A DNA stretch of 64,000 bases from Cellvibrio mixtus subsp. mixtus J3-8 (GTDB taxonomy: Bacteria > Pseudomonadota > Gammaproteobacteria > Pseudomonadales > Cellvibrionaceae). Position 1 is the stretch's first letter, and each line of letters starts with the position of its first letter. A program made the translations under genes and the position numbers. The DNA is taken from the NCBI RefSeq assembly GCF_000766945.1, contig NZ_KN266207.1, positions 999,898-1,063,897 on the forward strand, written 5' to 3'. The notes beneath the pieces are model-generated. The model saw only the letters and a list, made by a program, of their open reading frames with translations. It was not told where the DNA came from and searched no databases. Of the stretch, positions 19,059 to 33,264 are shown piece by piece.

Positions 19059-19154
19059 AGATACCCCGAGTGACCTTTTCTTGTTCGCAATTCAGAAGCG
19101 AGCGTCAATAATCCATCGGATTGTTGACGTTTTATCTGTGAATACCGGGGTAAT

Positions 19155-19171
19155 TGCAATCGCAATGCCAA
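19155..19171 (-). promoter_or_regulatory. sigma-54 promoter upstream of flrBC
   Basis: Minus strand TTGGCAT, then TTGCA after the proper spacing (GG and GC ten bases apart). Transcription would start near 19143, giving a leader of about 85 bases to the flrB ATG. In Vibrio and Pseudomonas this operon is driven by FlrA/FleQ with RpoN. Confidence 0.75.
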
Positions 19172-19276
19172 TCTAATTTTTTCTTTTATTTCAATAAGTT
19201 AAAAAGAATAAGCACAACTGCAGTCAAATCATTGGCTGGAAAATACAAATAGATTCCTTTATTCACCGTACCGGGG

Positions 19277-19305
19277 TTGTCGCATTTATTTACCCTCTCT
19301 ATAAT
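19277..19305 (+). promoter_or_regulatory. sigma-70 promoter of the riboswitch-Mn exporter unit
   Basis: A perfect -10 box TATAAT (19300-19305) with -35 TTGTCG (19277-19282) at 17-base spacing. Transcription would start near 19312, only a few bases before the first paired strand of the riboswitch. Confidence 0.75.
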
Positions 19306-19315
19306 GCGCGCACCC

Positions 19316-19526
19316 TCTCGGGGGAGTAATCTGCTCCGGCATTAACGTTAAATGCCGAGCGCTTTTGTCAACAAACTTATCGCTCAATCGATATGGCAAA
19401 AGCGTCCTCTGTGCGGCGATCACGCATCGCTCACCACACCGGATTGATGAGACCTGAGATACCACTGTGGCCCCGGGCGGGACACGGTTGTATCTCATGT
19501 ATTCATCCCGCCCTGGTACTTTAATA
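19316..19526 (+). promoter_or_regulatory. yybP-ykoY manganese riboswitch and expression platform
   Basis: The leader holds the yybP-ykoY hallmarks: GGGGAGTAA (19321-19329) in the first loop, a GGCATT/AATGCC hairpin after it, and GAGACCT in the partner loop near 19450. The closing stem P1 can be drawn between TCTCGG (19316-19321) and CCTGAGA (19453-19459). Downstream, GTATCTCA (19490-19497) is an exact complement of TGAGATAC (19455-19462), so it can open P1; a second stem GGGCGGGA/TCCCGCCC (19475-19482, 19506-19513) lies just before the start codon. These alternatives form a plausible switch. The following gene is a GDT1-family exporter, the commonest cargo of this Mn2+ sensor. Confidence 0.85.
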
Positions 19527-20096
19527 ATGGAAGCATTCCTCAGTTCAACGCTTGCCGTCTCTATCGCGGAAATCGGCGATAAAACCCAGCTACTTGCCCT
19601 CTTCCTTGCCGCACGCTACGGTCGCCCCTGGGTCATTAGCTTAGGAGTATTGGTTGCAACGCTGGTTAACCATGCCCTCTCTGCCTGGTTGGGCGCCGTG
19701 TTAGCTGATGTAATTCCACCGCATTGGATTCCGTGGATCATAGGCGGAAGTTTTATCGCTATCGGCCTTTGGTTATTAATTCCCGATAAAGAAGATGGCG
19801 ACATGGGCCGCTTCGCCAACTACGGTCCCTTTATGGCCACATTGGTATTATTTTTTCTCGCTGAAATTGGCGATAAAACCCAAATCGCCACCGTTATTCT
19901 CGCAGCAAAATATTCTGCCGATATGTTGATGACCATAGCCGTCATTGCCGGAACAACGTTCGGAATGCTGCTCGCCAATGTGCCCGTTATTTTTGCAGGC
20001 AAATGGCTGATGGATAAATTACCGCTGGGTTTTGCGCACAAAGCTGCATGCATTATTTTTATCGGTATGGGTATCGTCACACTGATTAATGCGTAA
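19527..20096 (+). CDS. GDT1/TMEM165-family (UPF0016) manganese exporter
   Basis: A 189-residue inner-membrane protein with about six helices. It has both family signature motifs, IAEIGDKTQ near residue 12 and LAEIGDKTQ near residue 113, in two homologous halves; these acidic motifs bind cations. Family members export Mn2+ (MntX/MneA type), and the riboswitch upstream supports Mn2+ here. I chose the ATG at 19527 (MEAFLSSTLAV) because family members begin this way. Alternative starts at 19497 and 19467 would fall within the riboswitch platform. No clear Shine-Dalgarno sequence precedes 19527. Confidence 0.9.
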   Translation: MEAFLSSTLAVSIAEIGDKTQLLALFLAARYGRPWVISLGVLVATLVNHALSAWLGAVLADVIPPHWIPWIIGGSFIAIGLWLLIPDKEDGDMGRFANYGPFMATLVLFFLAEIGDKTQIATVILAAKYSADMLMTIAVIAGTTFGMLLANVPVIFAGKWLMDKLPLGFAHKAACIIFIGMGIVTLINA

Positions 20097-20140
20097 AATG
20101 CCCTGCATTCGAAAACAATAATTCTTAAAAGGCCAACAAT

Positions 20141-21247
20141 ATGCACAATACAACCATCTACAAAGAGTTGCGTATTATTGGCGTTGTCGGACTACTCATT
20201 ATTGTTTTATCCAGTACAATTTTCTGGATTTTTCCCAACGCAAATATTCAGCCAGCCATGTATTTTCCAATTGCCACCAGCATCTGGTTTTTTTGCTGGT
20301 GGCAAACCTGGAAGCGCGCTACGTTAAATCGCCCTGAAAAAAATTCGCCCGCATTTCCAAACCTGGGTTGGGCGAATAACCTTACGCTACTACGCGGTGG
20401 ATTAATCGCGTTAACCGGCGGCTTTTTATTCCAACCCGATCCCATCGGCATCATCGCCTGGTTACCGGGTTTACTGTATAGCGCCGCTGCGATACTGGAC
20501 CGCGTCGATGGTTTTATCGCACGCCGCACGGGCAGGACGAGTTTGCTCGGCAGCGAACTCGATACACTGTTTGATGCATTGGGTTTATTGATTGCGCCAT
20601 TACTTGCGATTCAGTTAGGCAAATTACACTGGAGTTTTTTTGCGGTCAGCCTCGCCTATTACGTATTTATTTTTGGGATTTATTGGCGACATAAACACAA
20701 CCTTCCTACCTACCCACTCTTACCCAGCCAATTACGTCGCGCGTTCGCCGGATTTCAAATGGGGTTTGTCGCTGTGATTTTATTACCTGTATTTCCAGCA
20801 GATGCCACGGTATTACTCGGCGCAGCTTTTATGCTGCCCATCCTGATTGGATTCGTAGTAGATTGGCTAGTGGTTTCCGGTCGCATTGATGGAACACAAA
20901 CGAAAACCCTGGAGTTTTTTTTCGAACTCGATGCAATGAGTAAATACCTCTTTCAACCCGCCTTGCGGATCATTATCTCAACGCTGATTTTTTTTCTGAT
21001 TTATGTCGACGATTTATTATCGTCCATCAGCGCCGTGGCGATTGCCATATTCGCTATTCTGATTTTGTTGGGTGCAGGCGCGCGTATTGCAGCACTTTTA
21101 TTATTAATGCTCTGCAGTTATTTAATGAATGAATGGCATCAACCTGCGCTCTTGTTCACCTGCAGCTGGTTACTATTGCTGGGACCGGGTAATTATGCGT
21201 TATGGCGTGGTGACGATGTTTGGGTAAATCGTCAGGATGGAGCTTAA
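20141..21247 (+). CDS. CDP-alcohol phosphatidyltransferase family membrane protein
   Basis: This 368-residue polytopic protein has the full CDP-alcohol phosphotransferase signature starting near residue 119: DRVDG, AR, then G, D and D at the required spacing (DRVDGFIARRTG ... LLGSELDTLFDA). Such enzymes transfer a phospho-alcohol group from a CDP-linked donor to a second alcohol, making phospholipid or inositol-phosphate-type products. It is longer than PgsA/CdsA-type enzymes (about 180-230), with an extra C-terminal membrane region of four or so helices that I do not recognise. AAGGCC precedes the ATG. Its stop overlaps the next start (TAATG), so the two are coupled. Substrate unknown. Confidence 0.85.
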   Translation: MHNTTIYKELRIIGVVGLLIIVLSSTIFWIFPNANIQPAMYFPIATSIWFFCWWQTWKRATLNRPEKNSPAFPNLGWANNLTLLRGGLIALTGGFLFQPDPIGIIAWLPGLLYSAAAILDRVDGFIARRTGRTSLLGSELDTLFDALGLLIAPLLAIQLGKLHWSFFAVSLAYYVFIFGIYWRHKHNLPTYPLLPSQLRRAFAGFQMGFVAVILLPVFPADATVLLGAAFMLPILIGFVVDWLVVSGRIDGTQTKTLEFFFELDAMSKYLFQPALRIIISTLIFFLIYVDDLLSSISAVAIAIFAILILLGAGARIAALLLLMLCSYLMNEWHQPALLFTCSWLLLLGPGNYALWRGDDVWVNRQDGA

Positions 21248-22278
21248 TGTCTAAAGCAAAATTGCTGATTGCCTTACTGTGGGTTTCTGCACTGATTCTT
21301 GCAGGCTGGACTTTATCGCAATTACCCTTTGGTGAAATACTTACCAACCTGGAAAACCTGCCTGCCCGTGATTACATCATCCTGTTTGGTGCAAACCTTG
21401 CCATCATTCTTGTATTCAATCTGCGCTGGTTAATACTCGGCAACGCTATTCAAGCACCGGTTAATTTTTTCCAATTGCTCCTGATTCGCCAGGCTGGGCA
21501 AACCGTTAGTTTTATTACACCCGGACCACAATTTGGTGGCGAACCATTGCAAATATTCTGGCTCTGGCGCAATGCAAAATTACCATTGCACAAAGCGCTG
21601 CTTTCGTTGGGGCTGGATCGTTTCTATGAGCTCTGGGTAAATTTTACGGTGTTAGTGTTGGGTGTTTTGTTATTACTTACCTCCTCCGCTAACACCACTG
21701 CCAATTGGGGTTCCATCCTCATAGCGCTTGTTATTGTGCTTATATTGCTCTCAACCCTGGGCACACTCGTATTTAAACAACCCGGCTGGCTCGCTCAACG
21801 TTTTAATAACATCACCCATCGCTGGCAAGCGCACCGCTATTTATGCAACATAAAAACCCAATGGAACTTATTAAGCGAAGATTTACGCCGCTGTTTATAC
21901 CATCAAAAAAAGCGTTTGCTCTATGCTGCTTTATTATCAGTGCTCGGCTGGGCCGGCCTCATCGCTGAACTCCACCTCATTCTTTGGTTAACTGATACCC
22001 CGCTACCTCTCACCGGATTTCTTTTATTATTTGTCGCATTGCGCCTCGCTTTATTACTTCCGCTCCCCGGAGGAATAGGCACGATGGAAGCCGCCGTATT
22101 CTGGACCTTTCAGTATTTAAATTTACCGATGGAGTCAGCATTGGCGATGATTGCATTGATGCGTTTGCGTGATGTAGTGGTGTTAGTCTTTGGATTAGGA
22201 TGTCTGGGTTTTACTAAAAAACGTGTAGATACCAAAGAGGAAGAATTAATTGCAGACACCGGAACAAACAAAAAATAA
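21247..22278 (+). CDS. YbhN/AglD-family membrane protein (LPG synthase TM-like, UPF0104)
   Basis: A 343-residue membrane protein with about eight helices. The segment FITPGPQFGGEPLQIFWLWR and the C-terminal LALLLPLPGGIGTMEAAVFW are hallmarks of the lysylphosphatidylglycerol-synthase transmembrane family, which includes MprF flippase domains and AglD/YbhN. There is no aminoacyltransferase domain, so a lipid translocation or lipid-binding role is more likely than lysyl transfer. It is translationally coupled to the CDP-alcohol phosphatidyltransferase (start shares the A of its TAA stop; GGATGGAG upstream), suggesting that it acts on that enzyme's lipid product. Confidence 0.82.
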   Translation: MSKAKLLIALLWVSALILAGWTLSQLPFGEILTNLENLPARDYIILFGANLAIILVFNLRWLILGNAIQAPVNFFQLLLIRQAGQTVSFITPGPQFGGEPLQIFWLWRNAKLPLHKALLSLGLDRFYELWVNFTVLVLGVLLLLTSSANTTANWGSILIALVIVLILLSTLGTLVFKQPGWLAQRFNNITHRWQAHRYLCNIKTQWNLLSEDLRRCLYHQKKRLLYAALLSVLGWAGLIAELHLILWLTDTPLPLTGFLLLFVALRLALLLPLPGGIGTMEAAVFWTFQYLNLPMESALAMIALMRLRDVVVLVFGLGCLGFTKKRVDTKEEELIADTGTNKK

Positions 22279-22335
22279 TTTCACGTAAACATTAATTGAA
22301 AATATAACGTCTGAAGCATCAACAATACTTTGACC

Positions 22336-22352
22336 GGGTATTTTACATACCC
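22336..22352 (+). repeat. hairpin between the YbhN-like gene and nhaD
   Basis: GGGTA and TACCC with a seven-base loop, followed by CATTTTAC. It could be a weak terminator of the upstream pair or part of the nhaD leader. The T run is broken, so I do not call a terminator. Confidence 0.35.
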
Positions 22353-22433
22353 CATTTTACTAGCCCGTTTGAGCATGGTAGCCTTTGCGCAAATATAACG
22401 CTATTAAACACCAAAAGCCTCGAAGCAGTTATT

Positions 22434-23714
22434 ATGCTAACAACCCTCATCGTCATATTTATCATTGCTTACATTCTCATTGCACTTGAACATCCATTCA
22501 GAATTAATAAAGCCGCCACGGCACTCTTAAGTGCGGGGCTTATGTGGACTGTTTATGCGTTGCTATCCAATAGTGGGCACATATCAGAAGAATTAGCAGA
22601 GACACTGGTAAATACGGCCCAGATTGTATTTTTCCTGATAGGTGCAATGACAATTGTAGAGGTGATTGATGCCCACAATGGCTTCCAGGTAATTACCGAC
22701 AGAATCAAAACAACAAAACTATCAACGCTCATGGTGCTGGTTGGTACGGTGACATTTTTTCTTAGTGCAATTCTCGATAATCTCACCACCACTATTGTCA
22801 TGGTCTCACTCATGAAAAAATTGCTGGCGAAACGTGAGGATCGTTTATTTTTTGCCGGCATGATTGTTATTGCCGCCAATGCTGGTGGAGCCTGGTCACC
22901 GATTGGCGATGTGACAACCACCATGCTATGGATTGGCGGCCAGATCACACCAGTCAATATAATTACCAATGTATTTCTTGCATCTGCAGTAAACCTGTTA
23001 GTCCCGCTGCTCATCACCGCTTATGTGTTGCGCGGAAAAACAGCCGAAGCCCCTGTAGCTAAAATTATGAACACTAAAAGCTCAACTACTCCACAAGAAA
23101 GAAATATTGTATTTTTTCTGGGGCTTGGCGTGTTGATTGCAGTTCCCGTCTTCAAGGCAATTACCCACTTGCCTCCCTTTATGGGGATTCTCTTTGGACT
23201 GGGCATTCTTTGGTTAGTCGCCGATTTGATGCATAAAAATAAAGATGAGGAACATAAAGATCACTTAAGTATCAGCCATGCGTTAAGCCGCATAGACACC
23301 TCATCGATTATATTTTTTATTGGAATTTTATTAGCGATTGCGACGCTGGAACATTCGCAAATTCTGAAAAGCCTTGCGGGCTGGCTCGATGACACCGTAG
23401 GCCGTTTGGACGTAATCGTACTATTGATTGGTTTTGCTAGCGCTGTTGTCGACAACGTTCCATTGGTAGCCGCATCAATGGGAATGTATAGCCTCGAACA
23501 GTATCCTGCCGATAGTTTTATTTGGGAGTTTTTGGCTTATTGTGCGGGCACCGGGGGATCAATATTGATCATAGGTTCGGCAGCAGGTGTAGCCGCCATG
23601 GGCCTGGAAAAAATCGATTTTCTCTGGTATTTGAAAAAAATAAGTGCGCTAGCGACGATCGGATATGTTGCCGGGGCACTTGTTTATATTTTGCAATTTC
23701 ACCTTATGCACTAA
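22434..23714 (+). CDS. nhaD: sodium/proton antiporter NhaD
   Basis: NhaD exchanges Na+ (and Li+) for H+ at the inner membrane, helping with alkaline pH and salt. The 426-residue protein has about 12 hydrophobic segments and the ion-transporter pattern FLSAILDNLTTTIVMVSLM, then NAGGAWSPIGDVTTTMLW, and a repeat-related second half SAVVDNVPLVAASMGMYS. Length fits NhaD without a cleaved leader. Translation starts at the ATG at 22434; no strong ribosome site is visible. It stands alone on the plus strand. Confidence 0.92.
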   Translation: MLTTLIVIFIIAYILIALEHPFRINKAATALLSAGLMWTVYALLSNSGHISEELAETLVNTAQIVFFLIGAMTIVEVIDAHNGFQVITDRIKTTKLSTLMVLVGTVTFFLSAILDNLTTTIVMVSLMKKLLAKREDRLFFAGMIVIAANAGGAWSPIGDVTTTMLWIGGQITPVNIITNVFLASAVNLLVPLLITAYVLRGKTAEAPVAKIMNTKSSTTPQERNIVFFLGLGVLIAVPVFKAITHLPPFMGILFGLGILWLVADLMHKNKDEEHKDHLSISHALSRIDTSSIIFFIGILLAIATLEHSQILKSLAGWLDDTVGRLDVIVLLIGFASAVVDNVPLVAASMGMYSLEQYPADSFIWEFLAYCAGTGGSILIIGSAAGVAAMGLEKIDFLWYLKKISALATIGYVAGALVYILQFHLMH

Positions 23715-23764
23715 TTGAAAAATAAAGTGAATTAATGTGGAATCGATCAACAAAAATAAACACA

Positions 23765-24004
23765 TCAATGCTGTTGAAGTTTTCGTTCCCGGCTGGGCAA
23801 GGTTTTGTGGACAATCTGGTCATGCAACGCTGTTAATCGCATCATTTCCATTTTTGCCGCTTCTGCCGTTGCAAAAATACCGATGCATTTAAATGGGCGA
23901 TTAATAAGTTCGAAATACGCATCCAACAAATGCCCATCACTTTTAAAAAACTCTACAAACCGAATAGAGTAAAGCGCATTGCCACAAACCTGGGTGATTT
24001 TCAT
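23765..24004 (-). CDS. small hypothetical protein
   Basis: A 79-residue soluble protein, MKITQVCGNALYSIRF at the start, with FNRPFKCIG-like segment ELINRPFKCIGIFATAEAAKMEMMRL suggesting an alpha/beta fold. It is not recognised. The frame could start at GTG 24034, ten codons upstream; neither start has a convincing ribosome site. It lies tail-to-tail with nhaD. The stretch from 24035 to 24258 holds no gene that I can support. Confidence 0.5.
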   Translation of the reverse strand: MKITQVCGNALYSIRFVEFFKSDGHLLDAYFELINRPFKCIGIFATAEAAKMEMMRLTALHDQIVHKTLPSRERKLQQH

Positions 24005-24258
24005 GGGAGTCTGCTCAAAAAGGATGAATCCCACTGTAACACAGGAAAAACACTCAAAAAGAACTCAATTAAACTTAAAAAGAAAATCCTTAGACACATT
24101 CATACTCAACTGTAATTCAAGCCAAATGAAGCGACAAAATGATGATGATTTAGAAAATTAAACATGTATTCAACGCCAAAATAATAGTTGTTATTACCTT
24201 AAATAATCCCTTTAGTCGCTTTTCATCTACATCAGCGAGCAAATCACCGCAACAACAT

Positions 24259-24867
24259 CTAACAAAATGGTTGTCGGATAATTGTTTTCCATTTTTCCGG
24301 CGCTGCCTTTCGAATATCACTTAAATAAATTTCGTGGTGTTTTCCAGCAAGGTTACCGTTTGCCTGGATGTATTGATGAAGATGCTCAATAGTAGGGCCT
24401 TCTTCTGTAAATGGGCCAATATGTAGAATTTGTGCACAGCGCCCCTCAGCAAAAGATTCAAAACGTAATTGAGATAAAGCCGGTAATTTTTTCTTTTTGG
24501 TTACCTCTGCGATTGCAGAGTGGATGATGGATTGAGTTACAAACAATGGCTGCATAATCATCATGGTCCATTTCCATTGTGATTTATCGTTGCCAGCAAA
24601 TACCGACATATCATCAGCCCACCAGAGCCCTTCCAATGGCATAACCGTATAATCAATCGCTTGAGGTCCTTTTTTAAGCATAAATTTGGCGGTATAGGAT
24701 ACAGAAAACAACGCTTCCACTGCCTCAGCATATACTTGCGTTGTGTTCGGATCTCCCTTTCCGTCAATCATCAAATAATTAAGCGCAGGAACATCAACCT
24801 CAGCAATTTTTTTTGCAGATGTTTGATATAAATGCTTAAACTCTTTTTTGAGATCAATTTTTTCCAC
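24259..24867 (-). CDS. GyrI-like small-molecule-binding domain protein
   Basis: A 202-residue cytosolic protein of the GyrI/SOUL-like family. It starts MEKIDLKKEFKHLYQTSAKK and carries the domain pattern ALNYLMIDGKGDPNTTQVYAEAVEALFSV near residues 28-56, a Trp-rich middle (WWADDMSV) and the later RCAQILHIGPFTEEGPTI. Stand-alone GyrI-like domains bind and sometimes hydrolyse small hydrophobic or cationic compounds; no DNA-binding domain is present. It lies 57 bases downstream of the PTPS-like gene on the same strand and may bind that pathway's product, but that is inference only. Confidence 0.8.
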   Translation of the reverse strand: MEKIDLKKEFKHLYQTSAKKIAEVDVPALNYLMIDGKGDPNTTQVYAEAVEALFSVSYTAKFMLKKGPQAIDYTVMPLEGLWWADDMSVFAGNDKSQWKWTMMIMQPLFVTQSIIHSAIAEVTKKKKLPALSQLRFESFAEGRCAQILHIGPFTEEGPTIEHLHQYIQANGNLAGKHHEIYLSDIRKAAPEKWKTIIRQPFC

Positions 24868-24924
24868 GATTAGCCTCAGACCAGAATCTGCCGCGCAATA
24901 ATTACAAGGTTAACTCTCTTGTTT

Positions 24925-25302
24925 TTAAAAATCTTTCCTGTAAGACGCCCAGCAGTATTCATTTTCCCAAAGTTTTACCGTGAAAGATCCGGTTCCGGGA
25001 GGATTAATCGCTACCAATAATTTTTCACTGATAATACGGCTGAAATGTTCAATGCTTGGGTTAAGGCCAGCGAATTCCGGTTTTTCATTGAGCAGTGAGT
25101 CGCGAAAGTAAGCAATGGTGTTATTTAAAGCCGCTTCAATTTCTACAATATCCACTAAATAACCGTGCTTATCCAACTGGGTACTTTCGATGATAACTTC
25201 GGCGATAAAATGATGCGCATGGGGAAAATTTTCAGAACCCCAATCGCCGCCAACCAGAAAATGATTGGCAATAAAGTCTCGTCTTACGGCTACGCTGTAC
25301 AT
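24925..25302 (-). CDS. 6-pyruvoyl-tetrahydropterin synthase/QueD-like protein with altered active site
   Basis: The 125-residue protein has the PTPS fold pattern: zinc ligands His14, His28 and His30 (ANHFL ... PHAHHF), PSIEHF at 82-87, and the pterin-anchoring Glu113 in WENEY. Two catalytic residues of PTPS and QueD are changed: the Cys four places before the second zinc His is Glu24, and the Asp-His pair is Asp68-Ser69. So the standard elimination is unlikely and the enzyme may act differently on a dihydroneopterin-triphosphate-like substrate, or only bind a pterin. GGGAAC precedes the ATG. It lies just downstream of a dehydrogenase and a RibD-type reductase. Confidence 0.85.
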   Translation of the reverse strand: MYSVAVRRDFIANHFLVGGDWGSENFPHAHHFIAEVIIESTQLDKHGYLVDIVEIEAALNNTIAYFRDSLLNEKPEFAGLNPSIEHFSRIISEKLLVAINPPGTGSFTVKLWENEYCWASYRKDF

Positions 25303-25333
25303 AATAGTTCCCGATTAATTTTTTAACTTGATA

Positions 25334-26350
25334 TTAGTAAACAAACAACGCCTGGATTAGCGCTTCAGGTTGTTGATCCAATTGTTGATAAATCATTTGC
25401 GCTTGCACAAGTGTTGAACGCTGCGAAATAAAGCGCGATGGTTTAATGCGGCGGATCATATCCCAGGTAACATCAAAGCGGCGTGCCTTATCCCAACGTC
25501 CGGATAAATCCGGTGCAATACTGCTCACCTGGCTGGTAATTATTTGCAGGCGATTGCGATGCGCCGCGCCGCCTAAATAAACCGGTGCAGATTTAACGCC
25601 ATACCAACTGCCGATAACAATACGACTGTGGAATCCACTTAAGTCAATTGCAAGGTTCAATGCCTCCGGCACACCGGTTAGCTCATAAATCAGATCGGCG
25701 CCCTGCACGGCATTCAAATGCGTTTGCTGTGCGATCCGCTCGTGATCAATAAGCGGATCAAATGTGTTTGCGCCGAATTTTTCTGCATGTTCGCGGCGCA
25801 ATGGCCATTTGTCGGCTACGAGCAAATCCGTTAACGGCAATTGCCCCAGCAAACTGGTGAGTAACAAGCCAACAATGCCCTGCCCTAACACCACTACACG
25901 CTCACCCAGCAACGGTTTTCCATCGTGAATAAGATTTACGGCGGTTTCCATATTCGCGAGGAACACTGCATCTTCCGCAGCAATATCAGTGGGAATAATA
26001 ATTACATTTTCAATACGGCTAACAAAATGACTGGCATGAGGTTGAAATGCAAAGACATTTTTCCCCAACCAGGATTCATCGACACCAGCGCCTGACTGAA
26101 TCACTTTGCCAACGCTGGCGTAGCCATATTGCAAGGGATAACCTTGTTGCTGCAAATTTTCTATCGTGGCATCCAGCGCGATTTCCGCTGGCAATTGCCC
26201 GCGATAAACCAGCATTTCTGTTCCGGCACTAATCGCCGAGCAAATCACTTCAACCAACAATTCACCGGCGGCGGGTTTGGAAATTTGTTGTTCGCGAATT
26301 TCCAATTGATGGGGACCAGTGAACCAGAGTTGTTGCGCGCTATTTTTCAT
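25334..26350 (-). CDS. MDR-family dehydrogenase, BchC-like, zinc sites absent
   Basis: The 338-residue medium-chain dehydrogenase/reductase has a GroES-like N-terminal domain and a Rossmann domain with VVVLGQGIVGLLLTSLLG near residue 150. The segment SAISAGTEMLVYRGQLP resembles BchC-type oxidoreductases. The usual catalytic-zinc GHE motif and the four structural-zinc cysteines are missing, so it is probably zinc-independent. It would oxidise or reduce an alcohol/ketone using NAD(P)H. The start overlaps the end of the RibD-type gene by four bases, so the two are coupled, and the PTPS-like gene follows by 31 bases. Confidence 0.85.
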   Translation of the reverse strand: MKNSAQQLWFTGPHQLEIREQQISKPAAGELLVEVICSAISAGTEMLVYRGQLPAEIALDATIENLQQQGYPLQYGYASVGKVIQSGAGVDESWLGKNVFAFQPHASHFVSRIENVIIIPTDIAAEDAVFLANMETAVNLIHDGKPLLGERVVVLGQGIVGLLLTSLLGQLPLTDLLVADKWPLRREHAEKFGANTFDPLIDHERIAQQTHLNAVQGADLIYELTGVPEALNLAIDLSGFHSRIVIGSWYGVKSAPVYLGGAAHRNRLQIITSQVSSIAPDLSGRWDKARRFDVTWDMIRRIKPSRFISQRSTLVQAQMIYQQLDQQPEALIQALFVY

Positions 26351-27060
26351 TCGGCACCTTTGCGATAATCCAGTGTGCCCCAGAGAATCAAGTCATCACC
26401 GAGACGCTCACTGTGAAATGGATTTATCGCGGGCAAATCCACGCGCGCATTGATTTCCAAATCACCCACCGCTTTATAACCGCCCACAATTCGCGGAACG
26501 AGTGTGATTACAACCGCGTCCACCAATTGCGCTTTCAAAAAAGCCGTGATGACATGGGCACCACCTTCCACCATCAAATGCCGGATGCCTTTTTCATAAA
26601 GCAGCGCCAGTGCATTTTTCAAACAGACACGGCCATCGCTACCCGGTTGCGACTGGCAAATTTCGATACCATCCTGGTTTGGCCATTCACTTTCCTGTGT
26701 GGTTAAAATCCAGCAAGGTTTTTCAGTGCATTGACGTAAGCGCGCATCACTGGGCATACGTAATTGACTGTCCAATACAATCGGTTGCGGATTACTACCG
26801 GTCCAATGCCGCACATTTAATTGCGGATCGTCACTCAACACAGTGCCGATACCGACCAAAATACCATCATGCATGCTACGCAATTGATGGGTTAAACGCA
26901 GGGATTCACTCCCGCTCAGCGCCATCGGCTCGGACGAACGCAGGGCAATACTGCCATCCAGACTCTGGGCATAGCTGAGCGTGACGAAAGGTCGATTGGC
27001 GGGAGACAGGGATTTTTGCGCACCGGTTAACCAGTGTTCGATAGTGTTATTCAGATTCAT
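26347..27060 (-). CDS. RibD C-terminal-type reductase
   Basis: A 237-residue stand-alone reductase domain of the RibD/dihydrofolate-reductase fold. It shows RPFVTLSYAQSLDGSIA, MHDGILVGIGTVLSDDP, and EGGAHVITAFLKAQLVDAVVITLVPRIVGG, all typical. There is no deaminase domain, so it is not full RibD; stand-alone members reduce ribosylated pyrimidines or related compounds with NADPH. The start is ambiguous (ATG 27060 or GTG 27069). It is the first gene of the minus-strand group and diverges from the glycosyltransferase gene across 127 bases. Confidence 0.85.
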   Translation of the reverse strand: MNLNNTIEHWLTGAQKSLSPANRPFVTLSYAQSLDGSIALRSSEPMALSGSESLRLTHQLRSMHDGILVGIGTVLSDDPQLNVRHWTGSNPQPIVLDSQLRMPSDARLRQCTEKPCWILTTQESEWPNQDGIEICQSQPGSDGRVCLKNALALLYEKGIRHLMVEGGAHVITAFLKAQLVDAVVITLVPRIVGGYKAVGDLEINARVDLPAINPFHSERLGDDLILWGTLDYRKGAE

Positions 27061-27187
27061 GCAGGTCACTGGAATCAGGGCCCGATAAACAGGGCCTTAT
27101 ATTTGTGGTCTTTATTGTGTCAGTGATGGTGATCTTAAGGCAGAATTAGCACCTGACTCAACCGCCCTGACACAACTCTCGGATTAA

Positions 27188-28282
27188 ATGCGAACTGCAC
27201 CGGCAATGATTGATTCCATAACCCCCAATAACAGCACTTTCACTCTGTATTTTGCAGTGCCCGGCAATATTAACAGCCTCACCGGCGGTTATGGGTATGA
27301 CCGTGAATTAATCAAAGAGTTGAAAAGCGCTGGCATTCATGTGCAACTGTTATCACTCTCTGCTGAATTTCCTGCGCCCGGTTCCACGGCGTTAGTAGAC
27401 GCAGCAACAATATTTGCCAACCTTCCGGACGGAGCGATAGTGATTGCGGATGGCCTGGCCTTTGGCGTTATGGATGAAATCGCCACACGCGAATCGCAGC
27501 GATTAACTCTTGTTGCTTTGTGCCATCATCCCCTGGCGCTGGAAACCGGTATTAGCGCGAAGCAATCAAATGCATTAAAAATTTCCGAAACCCGCGCACT
27601 GGCCGCAGCAAAAGCGGTAATTGTTACCAGTGCCATGACGGGCAGAATTATTGCGCGTGATTTTGCAGTTGCTCCGGAAAAAATTATTCTTGCCTGTCCG
27701 GGGACCCGGGCACAAGTGTTTGCGCCGGGCAATCATCCCATCCCGCAATTACTCACGGTCGCTACGCTGACAAAACGTAAAGGCCACGATGTATTAATCA
27801 ATGCGCTTGCACGAATCGCGCATTTACACTGGCATGCACGGTTTGTTGGCGGAGCGGGATTTGATCCGTTGTGGGTTGCGCATCTACAACAGTTGGTGCA
27901 ACAACATAATCTCGAGCAACGTATTACCTTCGTCGGCAATGTTGACGATATTTCCATTGAGTTTTCCAATGCTGACGCATTTGTATTACCTTCACATTTT
28001 GAAGGCTACGGAATGGCCTTCGCCGAAGCGCTCTCGTTTGGATTGCCGGTTATCGCCACCAACGCAGGTGCTGTACCGGATCTTGTTCCAGCGAATGCAG
28101 GAATTTTAATTTCACCGGGTGATGTTGATGCTTTAACAAAAGCACTTGAACAATTACTGACAAATCCTGATTATCGCCAGCAACTGCAAGCAGGCGCGCA
28201 ACAGGCTGCAACCACACTGCCCACCTGGGCAGATTGTGCAAATAGTATTATCGATTTAATTATTCGTTTGAGGAATGTATGA
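27188..28282 (+). CDS. GT4-family glycosyltransferase
   Basis: The 364-residue protein is a GT-B fold retaining glycosyltransferase. The N-terminal half opens with PGNINSLTGGYGYDRELIKEL; the C-terminal half has LLTVATLTKRKGHDVLINAL and the donor-binding motif FVLPSHFEGYGMAFAEALSFGLPVIA, with the two glutamates expected in GT4. No signal or membrane segment is seen, so it acts in the cytosol or at the inner leaflet. Its stop overlaps the methyltransferase start as ATGA. Sugar donor and acceptor cannot be told; the neighbouring pterin-type genes make a pteridine-like acceptor attractive. Confidence 0.87.
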   Translation: MRTAPAMIDSITPNNSTFTLYFAVPGNINSLTGGYGYDRELIKELKSAGIHVQLLSLSAEFPAPGSTALVDAATIFANLPDGAIVIADGLAFGVMDEIATRESQRLTLVALCHHPLALETGISAKQSNALKISETRALAAAKAVIVTSAMTGRIIARDFAVAPEKIILACPGTRAQVFAPGNHPIPQLLTVATLTKRKGHDVLINALARIAHLHWHARFVGGAGFDPLWVAHLQQLVQQHNLEQRITFVGNVDDISIEFSNADAFVLPSHFEGYGMAFAEALSFGLPVIATNAGAVPDLVPANAGILISPGDVDALTKALEQLLTNPDYRQQLQAGAQQAATTLPTWADCANSIIDLIIRLRNV

Positions 28283-29091
28283 GTAGCTTTTCCATCGCCT
28301 GGCTGGATTTACGTGAACCCGCCGATTTTTCTGCGCGCGATAAATCATTGGTAAATCATGCGCTGAATTGGCTCGGACAAAAAGAAGATCCCATTTCACC
28401 AGACCGTATATTGGTTGATCTGGGCTCGGGCACCGGTTCAACGTTGCGTGCACTCACCAAACTCGGCGCCAGTAATTTTGTATGGCGCCTGGTGGATCTG
28501 GATGGAAAATTATTGGATGAAGCGCTTAAACGCCATGGCAAGCAATTATTGATTGAAGATTATCAAGCCGATTTAACGGTCGTAAATGAATTGCCCTTGA
28601 CCGGCGCCAATATTGTTACTGCATCCGCATTATTTGATTTGGCCTCGCGCGAATTTTGCGATGCATTAATTGCGCGTATCGATTCACGCAAAACAGCTAT
28701 TTATGCGGCACTCAATTACGATGGAACTACACAGTGGTCGCCACAACATCCGTTGGATGAAGCGGTATTAGCGGCATTTAATAAAGACCAGTTACGCGAT
28801 AAGGGCTTCGGCCCTGCCCTTGGCCCGGCAGCGACGGCGTATTTAAAAACACAACTGGAAAACGCAGGTTATACAGTACAAATCGCCGCCAGCCCATGGC
28901 AACTACATGGCCAGCAACAGCAACTGGTTGAAGCGTTAATTGATGGAGTAGCCAATGCCGTCGCGCACGATTACGGTATCGATCAAAACGCGTTAGACGA
29001 ATGGAAACAATTCCGTTTGCAACATGCCGCTACCGGAAACTGCACTATCGGCCATTGGGATTTATTAGCGCTACCGGCGACCAAATCCTGA
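28279..29091 (+). CDS. SAM-dependent methyltransferase
   Basis: A 270-residue class I methyltransferase. Motif I is ILVDLGSGTGSTLRAL near residue 46, motif II WRLVDLDGKLL follows, then NIVTASALFDLAS. The C-terminal part (FRLQHAATGNCTIGHWDLLALP) resembles small-molecule methyltransferases. It is coupled to the glycosyltransferase by a four-base ATGA overlap, so both probably modify the same compound. The gene ends 22 bases before the convergent sulfatase-fold gene. Confidence 0.83.
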   Translation: MSSFSIAWLDLREPADFSARDKSLVNHALNWLGQKEDPISPDRILVDLGSGTGSTLRALTKLGASNFVWRLVDLDGKLLDEALKRHGKQLLIEDYQADLTVVNELPLTGANIVTASALFDLASREFCDALIARIDSRKTAIYAALNYDGTTQWSPQHPLDEAVLAAFNKDQLRDKGFGPALGPAATAYLKTQLENAGYTVQIAASPWQLHGQQQQLVEALIDGVANAVAHDYGIDQNALDEWKQFRLQHAATGNCTIGHWDLLALPATKS

Positions 29092-29113
29092 TTAACAGGC
29101 TAATGAATTACAA

Positions 29114-30706
29114 TCAGGGTGCGGAAAACGTAGTAATAAAACGCTCACGCACCTGATCCATTGTCCATACCGGACCTGTATCAGCCGGGATCATTCCCTC
29201 TGCCCAATTCCAGCCGGCAATAGCATCAAGGATGTTGGGATCGCGCGCAAAAAAATGCACGGGTACATCGCGATTATCACTGTCGCCGGTTACCAGGGGC
29301 GCTGGCTGATGATCGCCAAATGCCATTACTACCAAATTCTCATCACCGTACTTCAGCACATAATCAACCACGGTCTGCAAGGTATATTCAATAGATAAAC
29401 GGAATTGTAAACGAATGCGTTCAGGATTTTTCCACACTGTTTCCGGGCTATCGCCACGCGTGGCTTGCTCGTTAAAAATTTCGCCGTTACCAACCAGATT
29501 CCAATCCACTAATTCCGGCACCGGCGTCCAGGGCGCGTGGGAGGAAATCAATGCAATTTCTGCCATTACCGGCGAACGATTTTCAGGCCGCAATTCATGA
29601 CGTTGAAATGCCGCTAACGTAAATTGATCCGGCATGGTAATCCAGTTAAATGGTTTGCCCTCATAGCCAAGGTTGTAAGCGTGATAAATATGGTCGTAAC
29701 CATAATAATTACCCTCCGGCCACGCCAGGGTTATGGCTGGCATCACACCAACCGCGCGCCAACCGGCGCGATGAAATAAGCGGTTTAACGATTCGCGCTT
29801 GCTCATCACCAATGAATCGTAACGAACTTGCGAATTTACCCATAAACCGGACATGGCAGTGCCGTGGGCTAACCAGCTTAATCCACCCACTGTTGGCGAT
29901 GTAAAATACGCGCTACGCACACCGATTCCAGCCGCTTGCAATTGTTCAGCTTGCGCTTGCAGTAACGGCCGAATGTGTTCAGAAAATTCCGGTTTATCCA
30001 GCGCTGTACGCCCGTACGACTCCATAAAAATAATCAATACATCTTTGCCCTGCAGCGTTTGAAATAAACCTTGATCAGGTATTTTTGCCTCATCACTTTG
30101 TGCCAGCAGTTGCTCGAAATCCTTCATGTCGTTAATGCTATTGCGAGTATTGGTAACATGCATTGCAAGCTGGTCATAAAATTGTGTGGATAAGCGCGGT
30201 GAACCTGCCCACCACAATGCGCCCCAGATACACACTAATACCAGCAGCGAAATCACACCGGCTTTTGGCTGGATTGTCAGGAGTTTACGTACGCGTTCCA
30301 TTAATAAAAATGCCAGTACAATAATGGCCAGTGAAACCACAACCAGCATTGCAACAATCAACACTGCCGCAAACTTTCCCACCGCACCATTTAATAAATC
30401 CTTGCCATTCACCAACAAATAAGCATCAAAGATAGGGTTAAACGGACGCGCAAAAATATTGAAGGTTGCCATATCGGCAATTTTGAAAATCAATCCTACA
30501 GCAAGCAAGCTCGCCGCTAACCAACGCAAGACTTTCCCCACTGATCCGGGGATCAGCAATAACAGGCCCAATAGTAAAAATTCGAGGGGAAAACGAAAAA
30601 AGCTATCAAGGTAAATATCCGATAAACGATTGGGAATAACCAATACAACGAATATCACAAGCAGAGCAATAACATTACGGAAGAACGAGAATATTTTTCG
30701 GGTCAT
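29114..30706 (-). CDS. sulfatase-fold membrane protein (LTA synthase/phosphoethanolamine transferase-like)
   Basis: The protein (about 530 residues) has an N-terminal region with around five membrane helices (to residue 165), then an extracytoplasmic alkaline-phosphatase-superfamily domain. The nucleophile region is IIFMESYGRTAL, where this group usually has Ser or Thr after a short spacer, and the metal site includes VVMAFGDHQPAP. Members transfer phosphoglycerol or phosphoethanolamine to lipids or glycans. I chose the ATG at 30706; TTG 30718 is possible. It follows the CbiM-like gene by 32 bases and converges on the methyltransferase. Substrate unknown. Confidence 0.8.
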   Translation of the reverse strand: MTRKIFSFFRNVIALLVIFVVLVIPNRLSDIYLDSFFRFPLEFLLLGLLLLIPGSVGKVLRWLAASLLAVGLIFKIADMATFNIFARPFNPIFDAYLLVNGKDLLNGAVGKFAAVLIVAMLVVVSLAIIVLAFLLMERVRKLLTIQPKAGVISLLVLVCIWGALWWAGSPRLSTQFYDQLAMHVTNTRNSINDMKDFEQLLAQSDEAKIPDQGLFQTLQGKDVLIIFMESYGRTALDKPEFSEHIRPLLQAQAEQLQAAGIGVRSAYFTSPTVGGLSWLAHGTAMSGLWVNSQVRYDSLVMSKRESLNRLFHRAGWRAVGVMPAITLAWPEGNYYGYDHIYHAYNLGYEGKPFNWITMPDQFTLAAFQRHELRPENRSPVMAEIALISSHAPWTPVPELVDWNLVGNGEIFNEQATRGDSPETVWKNPERIRLQFRLSIEYTLQTVVDYVLKYGDENLVVMAFGDHQPAPLVTGDSDNRDVPVHFFARDPNILDAIAGWNWAEGMIPADTGPVWTMDQVRERFITTFSAP

Positions 30707-30738
30707 TATTGTTGTCAAATTGCTAGCGGGTTAACTAC

Positions 30739-31446
30739 TTAGTCACGGGTATACCAATCATCGCGATAGGTTTTTACCAGCTCGGGATAAAATACGGTCA
30801 TTACAGTGGCGAGGATACCGTTAAGGAAACCTTCGGGAAAGGTGAGCAAGACAAATATCCAGAAATGTTCACGCACCGCCTCAAGCTGGATTTCACTGCC
30901 AGTAATGTAAAACAACAACCACGAGCACGCACCAATTAGCGAACAACTGATCATTGCGCCAAAAAAACCCACGCCCCAAAAGTAGGTAAACGGGTTTTTA
31001 AACTTCCAATGATCAACCAGCCAGATCATTAACCAGGCCCAACTCGCCGGCACTAATACACTTAAAACAAAATCCACGGGAAATGTGCGCAAATCAAATT
31101 GCGCCAGCGCCATATCCCAATCCATATTGGCAGTGCGCAATGGCAATTGGAAAATCTCCAGAACGACAAGCGCCCCGCCACCAATCAATAAAGCAAAACT
31201 CCATCCGAAAACCATAGTGGTAACAATCATCATCAACGGATGTATGGCAATTGCGCTCCATACCGAAACCTGTAATAACCAGATAATCGCCAATCCTAAT
31301 ATCGCCGCAAAAAAAGCGTGTTGGCGCAGTGACTCTGTCAATAGCATACGCCAGGGAGCCGTGATCGCCGCGATAAGTAATGCCGGGCTGGCAATGGCAC
31401 AACTGGTCCAGAACAAGTTGGCGCCGGGAGCGAAAAGCAGGTTCAT
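30739..31446 (-). CDS. CbiM-like membrane protein (COG3235 type)
   Basis: A 235-residue polytopic protein with about seven hydrophobic segments. The segment AIAIHPLMMIVTTMVFGWSFALLIGGGALV and FPEGFLNGILATVMTVFYPE recall the CbiM/energy-coupling permease family, in which such proteins take up Co2+ or Ni2+, but the canonical N-terminal MHIPDG-type metal site is absent. No ATPase or CbiN/Q partner is nearby, so metal transport is doubtful. It lies six bases after the HIT gene and is likely co-transcribed with it and with the sulfatase-fold gene. Confidence 0.7.
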   Translation of the reverse strand: MNLLFAPGANLFWTSCAIASPALLIAAITAPWRMLLTESLRQHAFFAAILGLAIIWLLQVSVWSAIAIHPLMMIVTTMVFGWSFALLIGGGALVVLEIFQLPLRTANMDWDMALAQFDLRTFPVDFVLSVLVPASWAWLMIWLVDHWKFKNPFTYFWGVGFFGAMISCSLIGACSWLLFYITGSEIQLEAVREHFWIFVLLTFPEGFLNGILATVMTVFYPELVKTYRDDWYTRD

Positions 31447-31452
31447 GCGGGA

Positions 31453-31872
31453 TTACACGTGTGCTTCCTGGTGACCTTGCGCCTGCAAGGTGGCGCGAAT
31501 TTTTTCGGCAGTTTGTTTGAGTACATCACCATCAGCATTTTTGGCGTGATCAAAACTTAAGTCGCCCATATGATCCACTGGCACGATATGAAGATGCGTA
31601 TGAGGAACTTCCAAACCGGCAATCATTAAACCTACACGTTTTGCGGGATAAGCCACTTTCAACGCATTGGCAATTTTATGGCTGACTTGCATCAGGTGCG
31701 CAGCAAGATCCAGGGGCAAATCATTCCAGTGATCAATTTCCTCACGCGGGATTACCAATACGTGCCCCTGACGAATAGGTTGGATAGTCAGTATTGCGAT
31801 TGCCTTGTCATCCTTCCAGACAAAATTGCCGGGAATTTTGCCTTCCATAATCAGGGTAAATACGCTTGCCAT
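31453..31872 (-). CDS. HIT-family nucleotide hydrolase
   Basis: A 139-residue cytosolic protein of the histidine-triad superfamily. The catalytic motif is VPHTHLHIVPVD near residues 94-105 (H-x-H-x-H), preceded by VIPREEIDHWNDLP. Such enzymes hydrolyse nucleotide-phosphoramidate or dinucleoside-polyphosphate bonds. An AAGGAG site lies at proper distance from the ATG. It heads the three-gene minus-strand group reaching 29114. Confidence 0.9.
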   Translation of the reverse strand: MASVFTLIMEGKIPGNFVWKDDKAIAILTIQPIRQGHVLVIPREEIDHWNDLPLDLAAHLMQVSHKIANALKVAYPAKRVGLMIAGLEVPHTHLHIVPVDHMGDLSFDHAKNADGDVLKQTAEKIRATLQAQGHQEAHV

Positions 31873-31903
31873 AAAAACTCCTTACAAAATTGGATAAATA
31901 AAA

Positions 31904-32749
31904 TTAATAAACGGCAATGCCACGCCGCAGTAATTCACGCGCAAGCATTTCGTCAATTTGATGAATGGTTTCATTGTGGAATTCGATATAGGCGACTTTA
32001 TGTTTTTTATAAAGCTGTTGCTTTTCAAGTTCGCCGCTGATTACGGCCGCACGATTTTTTTCCTGCGCCAGTTGATCAGCCCAACACTCAATGCATAAAT
32101 CTGCTTCCGGTAGATAAAAATCGGCAATCGCCGATTCCGTATCCCACATTAATAAATAATCGCGCGCATGAACGATGCGCGCCAGATACAACCAGTTATT
32201 GATCCGGCGCTGCACTGCGTTGTTTACGCGGTGGCCATCCAGCGCCGGTTGCCCATCCAAACCGGGATCGCCCTTAACTTGCAATAATGAAGCGATCAAT
32301 TCCGCTTCATCCACAATCGTTTCAGGCCAGGTGACAAATGGAATCCCGGATTCAGCCTCCTGCTGTTGCCCGCCCAATGATTTACCTTTGGCGCTTAACA
32401 GCCAGCCGCGGATATGTTTTTTAATCAGGCCTTTTTCGGCGAGCAATAAATTCACCAGGCGCGCGGGAATATCCCATTTATGCGCAAGATTTGTCGCACT
32501 GAGTGGCGCCTCAGGTAAAAGTTTTAATAATGGATGGTGCTGGATGGATTCAGGCCAGGCGATATATTCGCCGTATTTGGGATGATTCACATAAACCCCA
32601 CCCTCGAATTTTCCTTTTTCGGTGAGCTGCCAATGATTATCCACTTTGACTATCCAGCCACCGGAGGTCAGCAGAATAAATAGCTCCTTGCTCTCTTTAC
32701 CCAGCAAGCGCGCTAAAGCAGTTGTGGAAATGTGTTTTTCTGCCATCAT
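31904..32749 (-). CDS. unknown protein with winged-helix-like repeats and a PD-(D/E)XK-like nuclease domain
   Basis: The 281-residue protein has two related N-terminal segments: LARLLGKESKELFILLTSGGWIVKVDNHWQLTEKGKFEGG and LAHKWDIPARLVNLLLAEKGLIKKHIRGWLLSAKGKSLGG, each followed by a YIAWPESI or FVTWPETI strand. That suggests duplicated winged-helix domains. The C-terminal part has ADFYLPEADLCIECW, then a K-Q-x-x-Y-K-K-H-K helix and VAYIEFHNE, close to stand-alone PD-(D/E)XK nuclease domains, with Asp and Glu where metal ligands would be. AGGA precedes the first ATG. I infer a DNA- or RNA-processing enzyme; I cannot name it. Confidence 0.6.
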   Translation of the reverse strand: MMAEKHISTTALARLLGKESKELFILLTSGGWIVKVDNHWQLTEKGKFEGGVYVNHPKYGEYIAWPESIQHHPLLKLLPEAPLSATNLAHKWDIPARLVNLLLAEKGLIKKHIRGWLLSAKGKSLGGQQQEAESGIPFVTWPETIVDEAELIASLLQVKGDPGLDGQPALDGHRVNNAVQRRINNWLYLARIVHARDYLLMWDTESAIADFYLPEADLCIECWADQLAQEKNRAAVISGELEKQQLYKKHKVAYIEFHNETIHQIDEMLARELLRRGIAVY

Positions 32750-32796
32750 GCCGATCCTGAATTAAGTTTGGCCATTCTACTGCCTTAGAGAGATTT

Positions 32797-33264
32797 ATGC
32801 CTATTTGGGTTGATGGTGACGCCTGCCCTAAAGTCGTCAAGGAAATTTTGTTCCGCGCCGCGCACCAGCGGCAAATTCCGCTCACGTTAGTGGCCAATCA
32901 ATATATTGCGGTGCCCGCTTCACCTTTTATCAAGAGCTTGCAAGTCAGTAGCGGCTTTGATGTGGCGGATAACTACATCGTCGACTCACTGCAACCCGAT
33001 GATTTGGTGATCACTGCGGATATTCCGCTCGCTGCCGATGCATTAGCCAAAGGTGCTGCCGTCATCAACCCGCGCGGGCAAGAATATACCCGTGAAAATA
33101 TTGGCGCGCGCCTGAATATGCGCGATTTTATGGAGACCATGCGTGCCAGCGGCACAATATTGAACGATGGCCCGCTACCCTTCAGCCAGCAAGATCGCCA
33201 GTCATTTGCCAATGCATTGGACCGCTGGATTGCCCGCACCATTGCAGCAAAGCGCAAAATTTAA
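32797..33264 (+). CDS. DUF188/YaiI-YqxD family protein (UPF0178)
   Basis: A 155-residue cytosolic protein of the UPF0178 family. It opens with the signature [22 protein letters not shown] and has [17 protein letters not shown] and [24 protein letters not shown]. The fold is PIN-like with conserved acidic residues, suggesting a nuclease, but no activity is established for the family. An AGAGAG site precedes the ATG. It diverges from the nuclease-like gene at 31904. Confidence 0.9.

Follow-up and report, generated by a model that had tools for sequence, protein, structure and literature searches.

A recurrent prokaryotic gene cluster with a predicted link to the first steps of riboflavin biosynthesis

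A 64,000-nucleotide stretch of the Cellvibrio mixtus subsp. mixtus J3-8 genome (contig NZ_KN266207.1, positions 999,898 to 1,063,897; hereafter the window, numbered from its first letter) contains a group of putative biosynthetic genes arranged on divergent strands. On the minus strand, a stand-alone RibD_C reductase gene (26347-27069) is followed by a gene for a BchC-like oxidoreductase of the medium-chain dehydrogenase/reductase (MDR) superfamily (25334-26350) and by a gene for a PTPS-like T-fold protein (24925-25302, 81.6 bits). On the plus strand lie genes for a GT4 glycosyltransferase (27188-28282), assigned by a profile family match, and for a class I S-adenosylmethionine-dependent methyltransferase (28279-29091), a member of a cluster-specific family with a weak Pfam match under the cut-off. 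The RibD_C and MDR genes overlap by 4 bases (26347-26350), as do the glycosyltransferase and methyltransferase genes (28279-28282), and 31 bases separate the MDR gene from the PTPS-like gene. Further upstream on the plus strand, two overlapping genes encode recurrent members of the same gene set, each assigned by a family match: a CDP-alcohol phosphotransferase (CDP-OH; 20141-21247) and an LPG_synthase_TM or flippase-like membrane protein (LPG_TM; 21220-22278). An earlier reading made from the sequence alone had described six open reading frames (ORFs) between 24259 and 29091, coupled by overlaps and short gaps. All six are present where it placed them, the coupling is as described and profile searches recovered the named families. 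Its limits for the cluster held for the core genes, but they took in a GyrI-like gene that does not belong and missed CDP-OH, LPG_TM, a putative envelope enzyme and an unlinked GTP cyclohydrolase II (GCH II).

The MDR is the most specific marker of the system. We searched genome contigs with it, obtained 393 relatives and kept the best 80 of these 393 as loci; the closest proteins are 92% (JAGKWO010000038) and 84% (Cellvibrio sp. 79) identical to the window MDR. The ORF caller recovered the MDR in 78 of the 80 loci, and in these RibD_C is the ORF immediately before the MDR in 71 and PTPS the ORF immediately after it in 64. A 218-residue ORF found two places before the MDR in 52 loci is a GCH II. 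Six-frame ORFs lying up to 8 kb from the MDR were scanned with profiles. In the 44 loci where the MDR has 7 kb or more of sequence on each side, the scan detected RibD_C, PTPS-like and GT4 genes in 42 each, GCH II and CDP-OH in 35 each, LPG_TM and the methyltransferase in 33 each, YceI in 12 and a PbgA/LtaS-like gene in 11, whereas creatininase and GTP cyclohydrolase III (GCH III) genes were found in none of the 44 within that distance. All eight main families occur together in 23 of these loci.

The same families recur in three further samples. In a sample of 145 genomes from the same order, 16 (own included) carry the MDR with a score of at least 128 bits, and the next match reaches 56 bits. 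Stretches of up to 19.5 kb around the MDR of the other 15 genomes contain PTPS and GT4 genes in 15, RibD_C and CDP-OH in 14 each, LPG_TM in 14 (several of these matches being weak), the methyltransferase in 10, GCH II in 8 and YceI in 6. Among 299 Pseudomonadota genomes, some shared with the order sample, 19 (own included) exceed 250 bits with the MDR profile; in loci of about 4 kb from the 18 others, PTPS adjoins the MDR in every case and GT4 is present in 17, while three weaker matches (112-213 bits) are other MDRs accompanied by neither gene. Plasmid records with a match numbered 31, and 15 were read (8 haloarchaeal, 7 bacterial), with counts taken from our own ORF scan because plasmid annotation is incomplete by design. 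The 8 haloarchaeal loci contain PTPS and methyltransferase genes in 7 each, GT4 and CDP-OH in 4 each, GCH III in 3 and a creatininase in 1, with RibD_C and LPG_TM in 0 of 8; the bacterial plasmid loci contain PTPS and GT4 in all 7, the methyltransferase in 6, RibD_C in 5, CDP-OH in 4, and GCH II and LPG_TM in 3 each. The plasmid records add Alphaproteobacteria, Actinomycetota, another gammaproteobacterium and haloarchaea to the host range, and related gene sets were found in Alphaproteobacteria, Actinomycetota, Chloroflexota and haloarchaea. These data support one biosynthetic unit that is conserved across phyla and in both prokaryote domains, and bear out the expectation of the sequence-only reading that these families are conserved together.

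The cluster is often found on large plasmids (L132-L146: haloarchaea, Rhizobiaceae, Methylosinus, Streptomyces and Microbacterium), which suggests transfer as a unit. One record titled as a Klebsiella pneumoniae metagenome-assembled genome (L052, CAMCRC010000072.1) contains a cluster of the window type at 55-59% identity; either the record is misnamed or its contig was assigned to the wrong bin, in all probability. The GyrI-like gene (24259-24867, minus strand), although a profile match to its family, was excluded from the gene set, having no relative by blastp in the 80 loci and none by phmmer (E ≤ 1e-3) in the 110 related loci. It lies between the PTPS and NhaD genes in the window alone, is missing from the two nearest relatives (L034, L035) and is a strain-specific insertion. 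NhaD was also rejected as a member, since strong matches are restricted to the two closest relatives, with one weak match of 28.7 bits in L101. No Rfam match at gathering thresholds was found in 19000-33000, and riboswitch control of the cluster was set aside.

The AlphaFold model of the PTPS-like protein is a T-fold (pLDDT 96) whose closest solved structure is 3d7j (SCO6650, TM 0.88), with QueD also close; both the PTPS fold and the lWE-motif Glu are conserved in the protein. Across 67 window-type rows of the alignment, the metal ligands His14, His28 and His30 are kept in 66, 65 and 66 rows, and Glu24 in 66; the window sequence E24-N-F-P-H28-A-H30 is an instance of the motif ENxPH[AS]H. The catalytic residues of QueD are Cys27, Asp70 and His71. 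Cys27 aligns with Glu24 of the PTPS-like protein, Asp70 with position 67 (mostly Arg, Gly, Lys or Ser; Arg67 in the window) and His71 with position 68 (mostly Asp or Glu; Asp68 in the window). With all three replaced, no CxxxHGH signature and an NCBIfam QueD score of 36.6 bits against a cut-off of 89, a QueD (PTPS-I) identity was rejected. PTPS-II and PTPS-III were rejected because the window protein contains neither CxxxxxHGH nor ExxHGH, which the available part of PMC5041015 gives as their signatures. The PTPS-IV motif FGPAQ, as defined in the available text of PMC5445326, is absent from the window protein and from the consensus of the 67 rows, so that identity was also rejected. A queuosine or folate context was discarded along with the QueD, PTPS-II and PTPS-III signatures, and no queuosine or folate gene was recognised in the neighbourhoods read.

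Proteins with FGPAQ nevertheless occur in the same kind of cluster (L122, L125), and nine Halomonas-like rows have the FGPAQ region together with Ala at the positions of Glu24 and His30. Judging from these residues, at least two PTPS types serve one kind of cluster, one with the metal site and one partly without it, and neither is expected to act as an ordinary QueD or PTPS. PTPS-V is a group to which the window protein might belong, and its function is described as unclear in the available part of PMC5041015, which refers PTPS-IV to unpublished work (F420). The genome that holds the window also contains a 294-residue frame with two PTPS-like matches (L002, G000:C1:305463-306230), a separate PTPS-family protein.

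The MDR falls under the Pfam cut-offs, and its best NCBIfam match is BchC at 80.9 bits, far under the equivalog cut-off of 291.25. The sequence-only reading had proposed a zinc-free BchC-like dehydrogenase: the zinc ligands do appear to be lost, and an identity as BchC itself was rejected. In zinc-dependent MDR alcohol dehydrogenases, the catalytic zinc ligands are a Cys and the His of a GHE motif. The GHE of 6ie0 aligns with GYA in the window protein, in a stretch that scores only 6.3 bits, and Tyr75-Gly76-Tyr77 is invariant in 24 rows; a zinc-dependent alcohol dehydrogenase was therefore rejected. An oxidation of the ribityl C2 hydroxyl by the MDR, giving the same Amadori intermediate as GTP cyclohydrolase I, is speculative, given the loss of the zinc site.

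The RibD_C protein (240 residues, 153 bits to PF01872) has no match to the deaminase domain. According to the accessible portion of PMC3631187, one residue of RIB7-type reductases sets the choice between 2-amino and 2-oxo substrates, being Lys in bacterial RibD/RibG, Thr in yeast and Asn in archaea, and T35K turns yeast RIB7 toward the deaminated substrate. The window protein has Ser32 at this position (BsRibG Lys151, ScRIB7 Thr35), and the genome's own bifunctional RibD has Lys. Among 73 family rows the residue is Ser in 37, Ala in 17, Thr in 12 and Cys in 7, and in 19 further rows (4 of them window-type) it is Gln in 13, Ser in 4 and His in 2; Lys occurs in 0 of the 92 aligned rows. Thr76, Asp80, Glu168 and Gly170 are kept, with one row gapped at 168-170, and correspond to ScRIB7 Thr79, Asp83, Glu180 and Gly182, catalytic or cofactor residues in the same portion of PMC3631187. 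Because the activity residues are kept and the Lys is absent, the protein is predicted to be a 2-amino (Rib7/ArfC-type) reductase that converts 2,5-diamino-6-ribosylamino-4(3H)-pyrimidinone 5'-phosphate (DARPP) to the ribitylamino compound (DARIPP) without deamination. The absence of RibD_C from all 8 haloarchaeal loci, against 5 of 7 bacterial plasmid loci, fits this prediction because archaea already have such a reductase for riboflavin, and would be expected if they use this housekeeping enzyme, although such local absences count as weak evidence.

The genome has three PF00925 proteins, namely RibBA, a housekeeping RibA (L115) and a second stand-alone GCH II (L114, G000:C4:232613-233104) that is unlinked to the cluster; no GCH II lies beside the window RibD_C. 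Against two cluster-linked GCH IIs, L114 has identities of 59.6 and 60.0%, compared with 48.5 and 46.0% for L115. In a maximum likelihood tree of 85 rows, L114 falls within a 56-row clade of cluster-linked GCH IIs, separated by a split with 100/100 support, and within its gammaproteobacterial subgroup (98/92), while L115 groups with 28 generic RibAs apart from this clade. This placement suggests that L114 is the pathway-specific GCH II of the system. By eye, the genes on either side of L114 encode a PepSY-like membrane protein and an efflux adaptor, and L115 adjoins thiL/pgpA-like genes. Across the order sample, 12 of 16 MDR-positive genomes had at least two PF00925 matches at E ≤ 1e-40, compared with 6 of 129 that are MDR-negative (Fisher p = 2.5e-10). 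Requiring a second match of at least 145 bits, which drops the RibBA-like second matches of G060 and G093 as well as one of G069, left 10 of 16 against 5 of 129 (p = 2.4e-8); both p-values overstate independence because the genomes are related. In the organism's own family, five sampled relatives without the cluster have one PF00925 match (E ≤ 1e-40) each.

In 3 of the 8 haloarchaeal loci GCH III (PF05165; 276 bits in L134) is linked in place of GCH II. The former makes AFRPP and the latter DARPP. Of the 15 order loci, 3 have a creatininase-family gene, as do 2 of the 15 plasmid loci, and none was found in the window-type loci (0 of 80); those tested are closest to MftE (141-147 bits, cut-off 172) and creatininase models, under the cut-offs, and an ArfB identity was rejected (20-37 bits against 180). 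BrbF, a formamidase of the creatininase family, converts AFRPP to DARPP (PMC9478397, available part). DARPP is favoured as the intermediate because the clusters contain families that form it or lead toward it, namely GCH II, GCH III and, in some loci, the creatininase family to which BrbF belongs. With the genome's FolE as a single-sequence query, no homologue of GTP cyclohydrolase I was found in the 110 loci, FolE2/MptA lying outside this search. The genome's own RibE likewise had no homologue there, and a RibBA query gave weak matches only (34 bits or less), those listed sitting at GCH II positions. The sequence-only reading had brought in dihydroneopterin triphosphate as the compound that PTPS/QueD proteins handle; with GCH II or GCH III as the recurrent first enzyme, FolE in 0 of 110 loci and the QueD Cys, Asp and His replaced, this substrate is unlikely.

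Several members of the set are membrane proteins. The motif DxxDGxxAR...GxxxDxxxD, which we take to be that of CDP-alcohol phosphotransferases, was read by eye in the window CDP-OH protein. A rarer member (29114-30718, minus strand) is a putative membrane enzyme of the alkaline-phosphatase superfamily that has no Pfam match and matches an LtaP profile at E = 0.0024. An alphaproteobacterial plasmid encodes a protein 44% identical to it, next to the same kind of cluster. Its model (pLDDT 73) gave a Foldseek E-value of 4e-7 to 6v8q, with TM values of just 0.25-0.41 among the top PbgA/MCR-1/LtaS rows, and the predicted fold is probably of the PbgA/EptA/LtaS class. YceI genes, a lipid-binding family, recur beside the cluster in two separate groups (L120, L121, L123, L124, L126 and L127, and 17 of the 80 genome-contig loci), and cytochrome b561-family genes occur in 2 of the 44 loci, in 3 of the 15 from the order and in 2 of the 15 from plasmids. 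The recurrence of both suggests a periplasmic or membrane redox role.

Together, these observations lead us to propose that the gene set probably encodes a dedicated pathway that branches from the first riboflavin steps and converts GTP to a pterin- or pyrimidine-like product that is glycosylated, methylated and possibly linked to a lipid. A pathway-specific GCH II, here the unlinked L114, would convert GTP to DARPP, and the stand-alone RibD_C would reduce it to DARIPP with no deamination; these two steps are proposed with fair confidence. The MDR and the PTPS-like protein, which keeps its metal site but not the QueD/PTPS catalytic residues, might then form a pterin-like ring or a modified side chain, giving a pterin-like or modified pyrimidine compound. 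GT4 would add a sugar and the methyltransferase a methyl group, and CDP-OH, LPG_TM and, in some loci, the PbgA/EptA/LtaS-like enzyme could couple the product to a lipid and translocate it to the other side of the membrane. Our confidence in the ring or side-chain chemistry, the decoration and the lipid linkage with flipping is low. The gene set, its conservation, the GCH II clade and the active-site residues are read directly from sequences; the reactions are predictions throughout, above all the order and chemistry of the MDR and PTPS steps and the lipid step. The families of the conserved unit do point to a product like the reduced, glycosylated and methylated pteridine- or pyrimidine-like metabolite foreseen by the sequence-only reading. 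A more specific proposal, which we hold only tentatively and think more apt to fail than to stand, is a widespread and so far unrecognised class of membrane-anchored cofactor with a non-deaminated, GTP-derived, pterin-like head that is reduced, glycosylated and methylated. Its ribityl or polyol chain would connect it to a phospholipid, based on diacylglycerol in bacteria and on archaeol in archaea, and it would be flipped outward for membrane redox chemistry with cytochrome b561 and YceI-type proteins.

A number of points weigh against the proposed pathway. Two of the 44 loci (L091 and L099, both Anaerolineae) have the MDR, but RibD_C, PTPS and GT4 are all missing from the surrounding 8 kb. 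LPG_TM matches are weak (31-69 bits) in the Halomonas-like sister group, and the methyltransferase was found in 10 of 15 order loci. No GCH II lies within 8 kb in 9 of the 44 loci, GCH II is present in 3 of 7 bacterial plasmid loci and GCH III in no more than 3 of 8 haloarchaeal loci, and 4 of the 16 MDR-positive order genomes have a single strong GCH II. The branch of L114 is flagged as long, which leaves its exact position in the tree unsure; what matters is the 100/100 split. At the RibD_C specificity position, Lys is replaced by Ser, Ala, Thr, Cys, Gln or His, a range beyond the fungal Thr and archaeal Asn. The loss of the zinc site makes an ordinary polyol dehydrogenase role for the MDR less certain, and the case for lipid attachment is one of family membership.

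Other explanations differ in how much of the gene set they account for. The cluster might combine two modules, a soluble pterin-like glycoside pathway (RibD_C-MDR-PTPS-GT4-methyltransferase) and an unrelated envelope-lipid module (CDP-OH, LPG_TM and the PbgA/LtaS-like enzyme). In gammaproteobacterial loci turned so that the MDR is on the plus strand, CDP-OH is on the minus strand in 48 of 52 and LPG_TM in 46 of 51, and the membrane genes are absent from about 9-11 of the 44 loci, LPG_TM also from all 8 haloarchaeal loci. However, CDP-OH is a neighbour in 35 of 44 genome and 14 of 15 order loci and, on plasmids, in 4 of the 8 haloarchaeal and 4 of the 7 bacterial loci. In haloarchaeal L134, L142 and L140 it lies a short way upstream of GCH III or the MDR, with the same orientation; we regard two modules as rather unlikely, though the strongest of the competitors. 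That the neighbourhood is a chance assembly of unrelated genes, as the divergent strands might suggest, has a negligible probability and is already refuted by the neighbourhood counts given above. Among these, PTPS adjoins the MDR in all 18 Pseudomonadota genomes, the own one apart, that exceed 250 bits, and in 0 of 3 weaker matches to other MDRs.

Two further explanations assign the genes to known routes. GTP cyclohydrolase I could supply dihydroneopterin triphosphate to a PTPS-like protein acting as a PTPS, with RibD_C and the MDR as sepiapterin or dihydropterin reductases and a biopterin-glycoside-like product. The genome's own FolE, the conserved PTPS fold with the Glu of the lWE motif and the known action of a cyanobacterial GT4 on tetrahydrobiopterin fit such a route, but it is made improbable by the recurrence of GCH II/III where FolE is missing from all 110 loci, by the replaced catalytic residues of QueD and by a GCH II paralogue that follows the cluster. 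Slightly less probable again is an additional source of riboflavin or deazaflavin precursors, in which a flavin would be the substrate of the other enzymes. GCH II and RibD_C are riboflavin-pathway families, but this RibD_C lacks a deaminase domain and has Ser instead of the Lys that selects the deaminated substrate, RibE is found in 0 of 110 loci and RibBA only as the weak matches noted above, and the genome has its own RibD, RibE, RibA and RibBA elsewhere.

The proposed pathway can be compared with several known systems. The early archaeal and fungal riboflavin pathway (GCH III/ArfB or GCH II, then Rib7/ArfC) shares the route from GTP through DARPP to DARIPP, with reduction before deamination, as well as the GCH II/III and RibD_C families and a non-Lys specificity position. 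The cluster differs in having, as far as tested, no deaminase, RibB, RibH or RibE and in adding the MDR, PTPS-like, GT4, methyltransferase and lipid-type genes, in a genome that keeps a separate riboflavin set. With QueD and PTPS-I, -II and -III, the PTPS-like protein shares the T-fold, three metal His and a Glu near the C-terminus, but not their signatures; it resembles PTPS-IV most closely in structure and occurs in similar clusters, but is about 27-32% identical and has His14/28/30 and ENxPH[AS]H instead of FGPAQ. In cyanobacteria and green sulfur bacteria, the pathways to tetrahydrobiopterin glycosides also combine a PTPS-family enzyme with a glycosyltransferase that acts on a pterin, and start from GTP cyclohydrolase I; to our knowledge, they include no GCH II, RibD_C, MDR or CDP-OH. 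Halobacterial phosphohalopterin was a further compound considered. The creatininase family of BrbF is common to some loci, in which the cluster proteins score nearer to MftE than to ArfB (for BrbF, PMC9478397, in part).

In agreement with the sequence-only reading, which could name no pathway with this gene set, a search of open-access PubMed Central full text, a scope that excludes subscription papers and preprints, gave no description of the whole set, although part of the neighbourhood has been seen for the sister PTPS group. In the available text of PMC5445326, the PTPS-IV neighbourhood obtained with AGeNNT includes PF00925 and RibD_C, and PF00925 is labelled 'GTP cyclohydrolase I / FolE2'. 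The Pfam name of PF00925 is GTP cyclohydrolase II, which changes the reading of that neighbourhood. The parts of the system are known families on a branch of riboflavin and pterin precursor pathways, and the compound made could belong to a new class.

By default, annotation often labels PTPS-type proteins as biopterin or queuosine enzymes; the gene neighbourhood and residues of this large bacterial and haloarchaeal group argue for a different, DARPP-based pathway. If correct, the proposal would define a new metabolite, explain second copies of GCH II and give roles to stand-alone RibD_C proteins, the zinc-free MDR and the PTPS-IV-like group with its orphan crystal structure SCO6650. The system occurs in cultured, tractable organisms, including Methylomonas sp. 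LW13, Haloarcula marismortui and Streptomyces.

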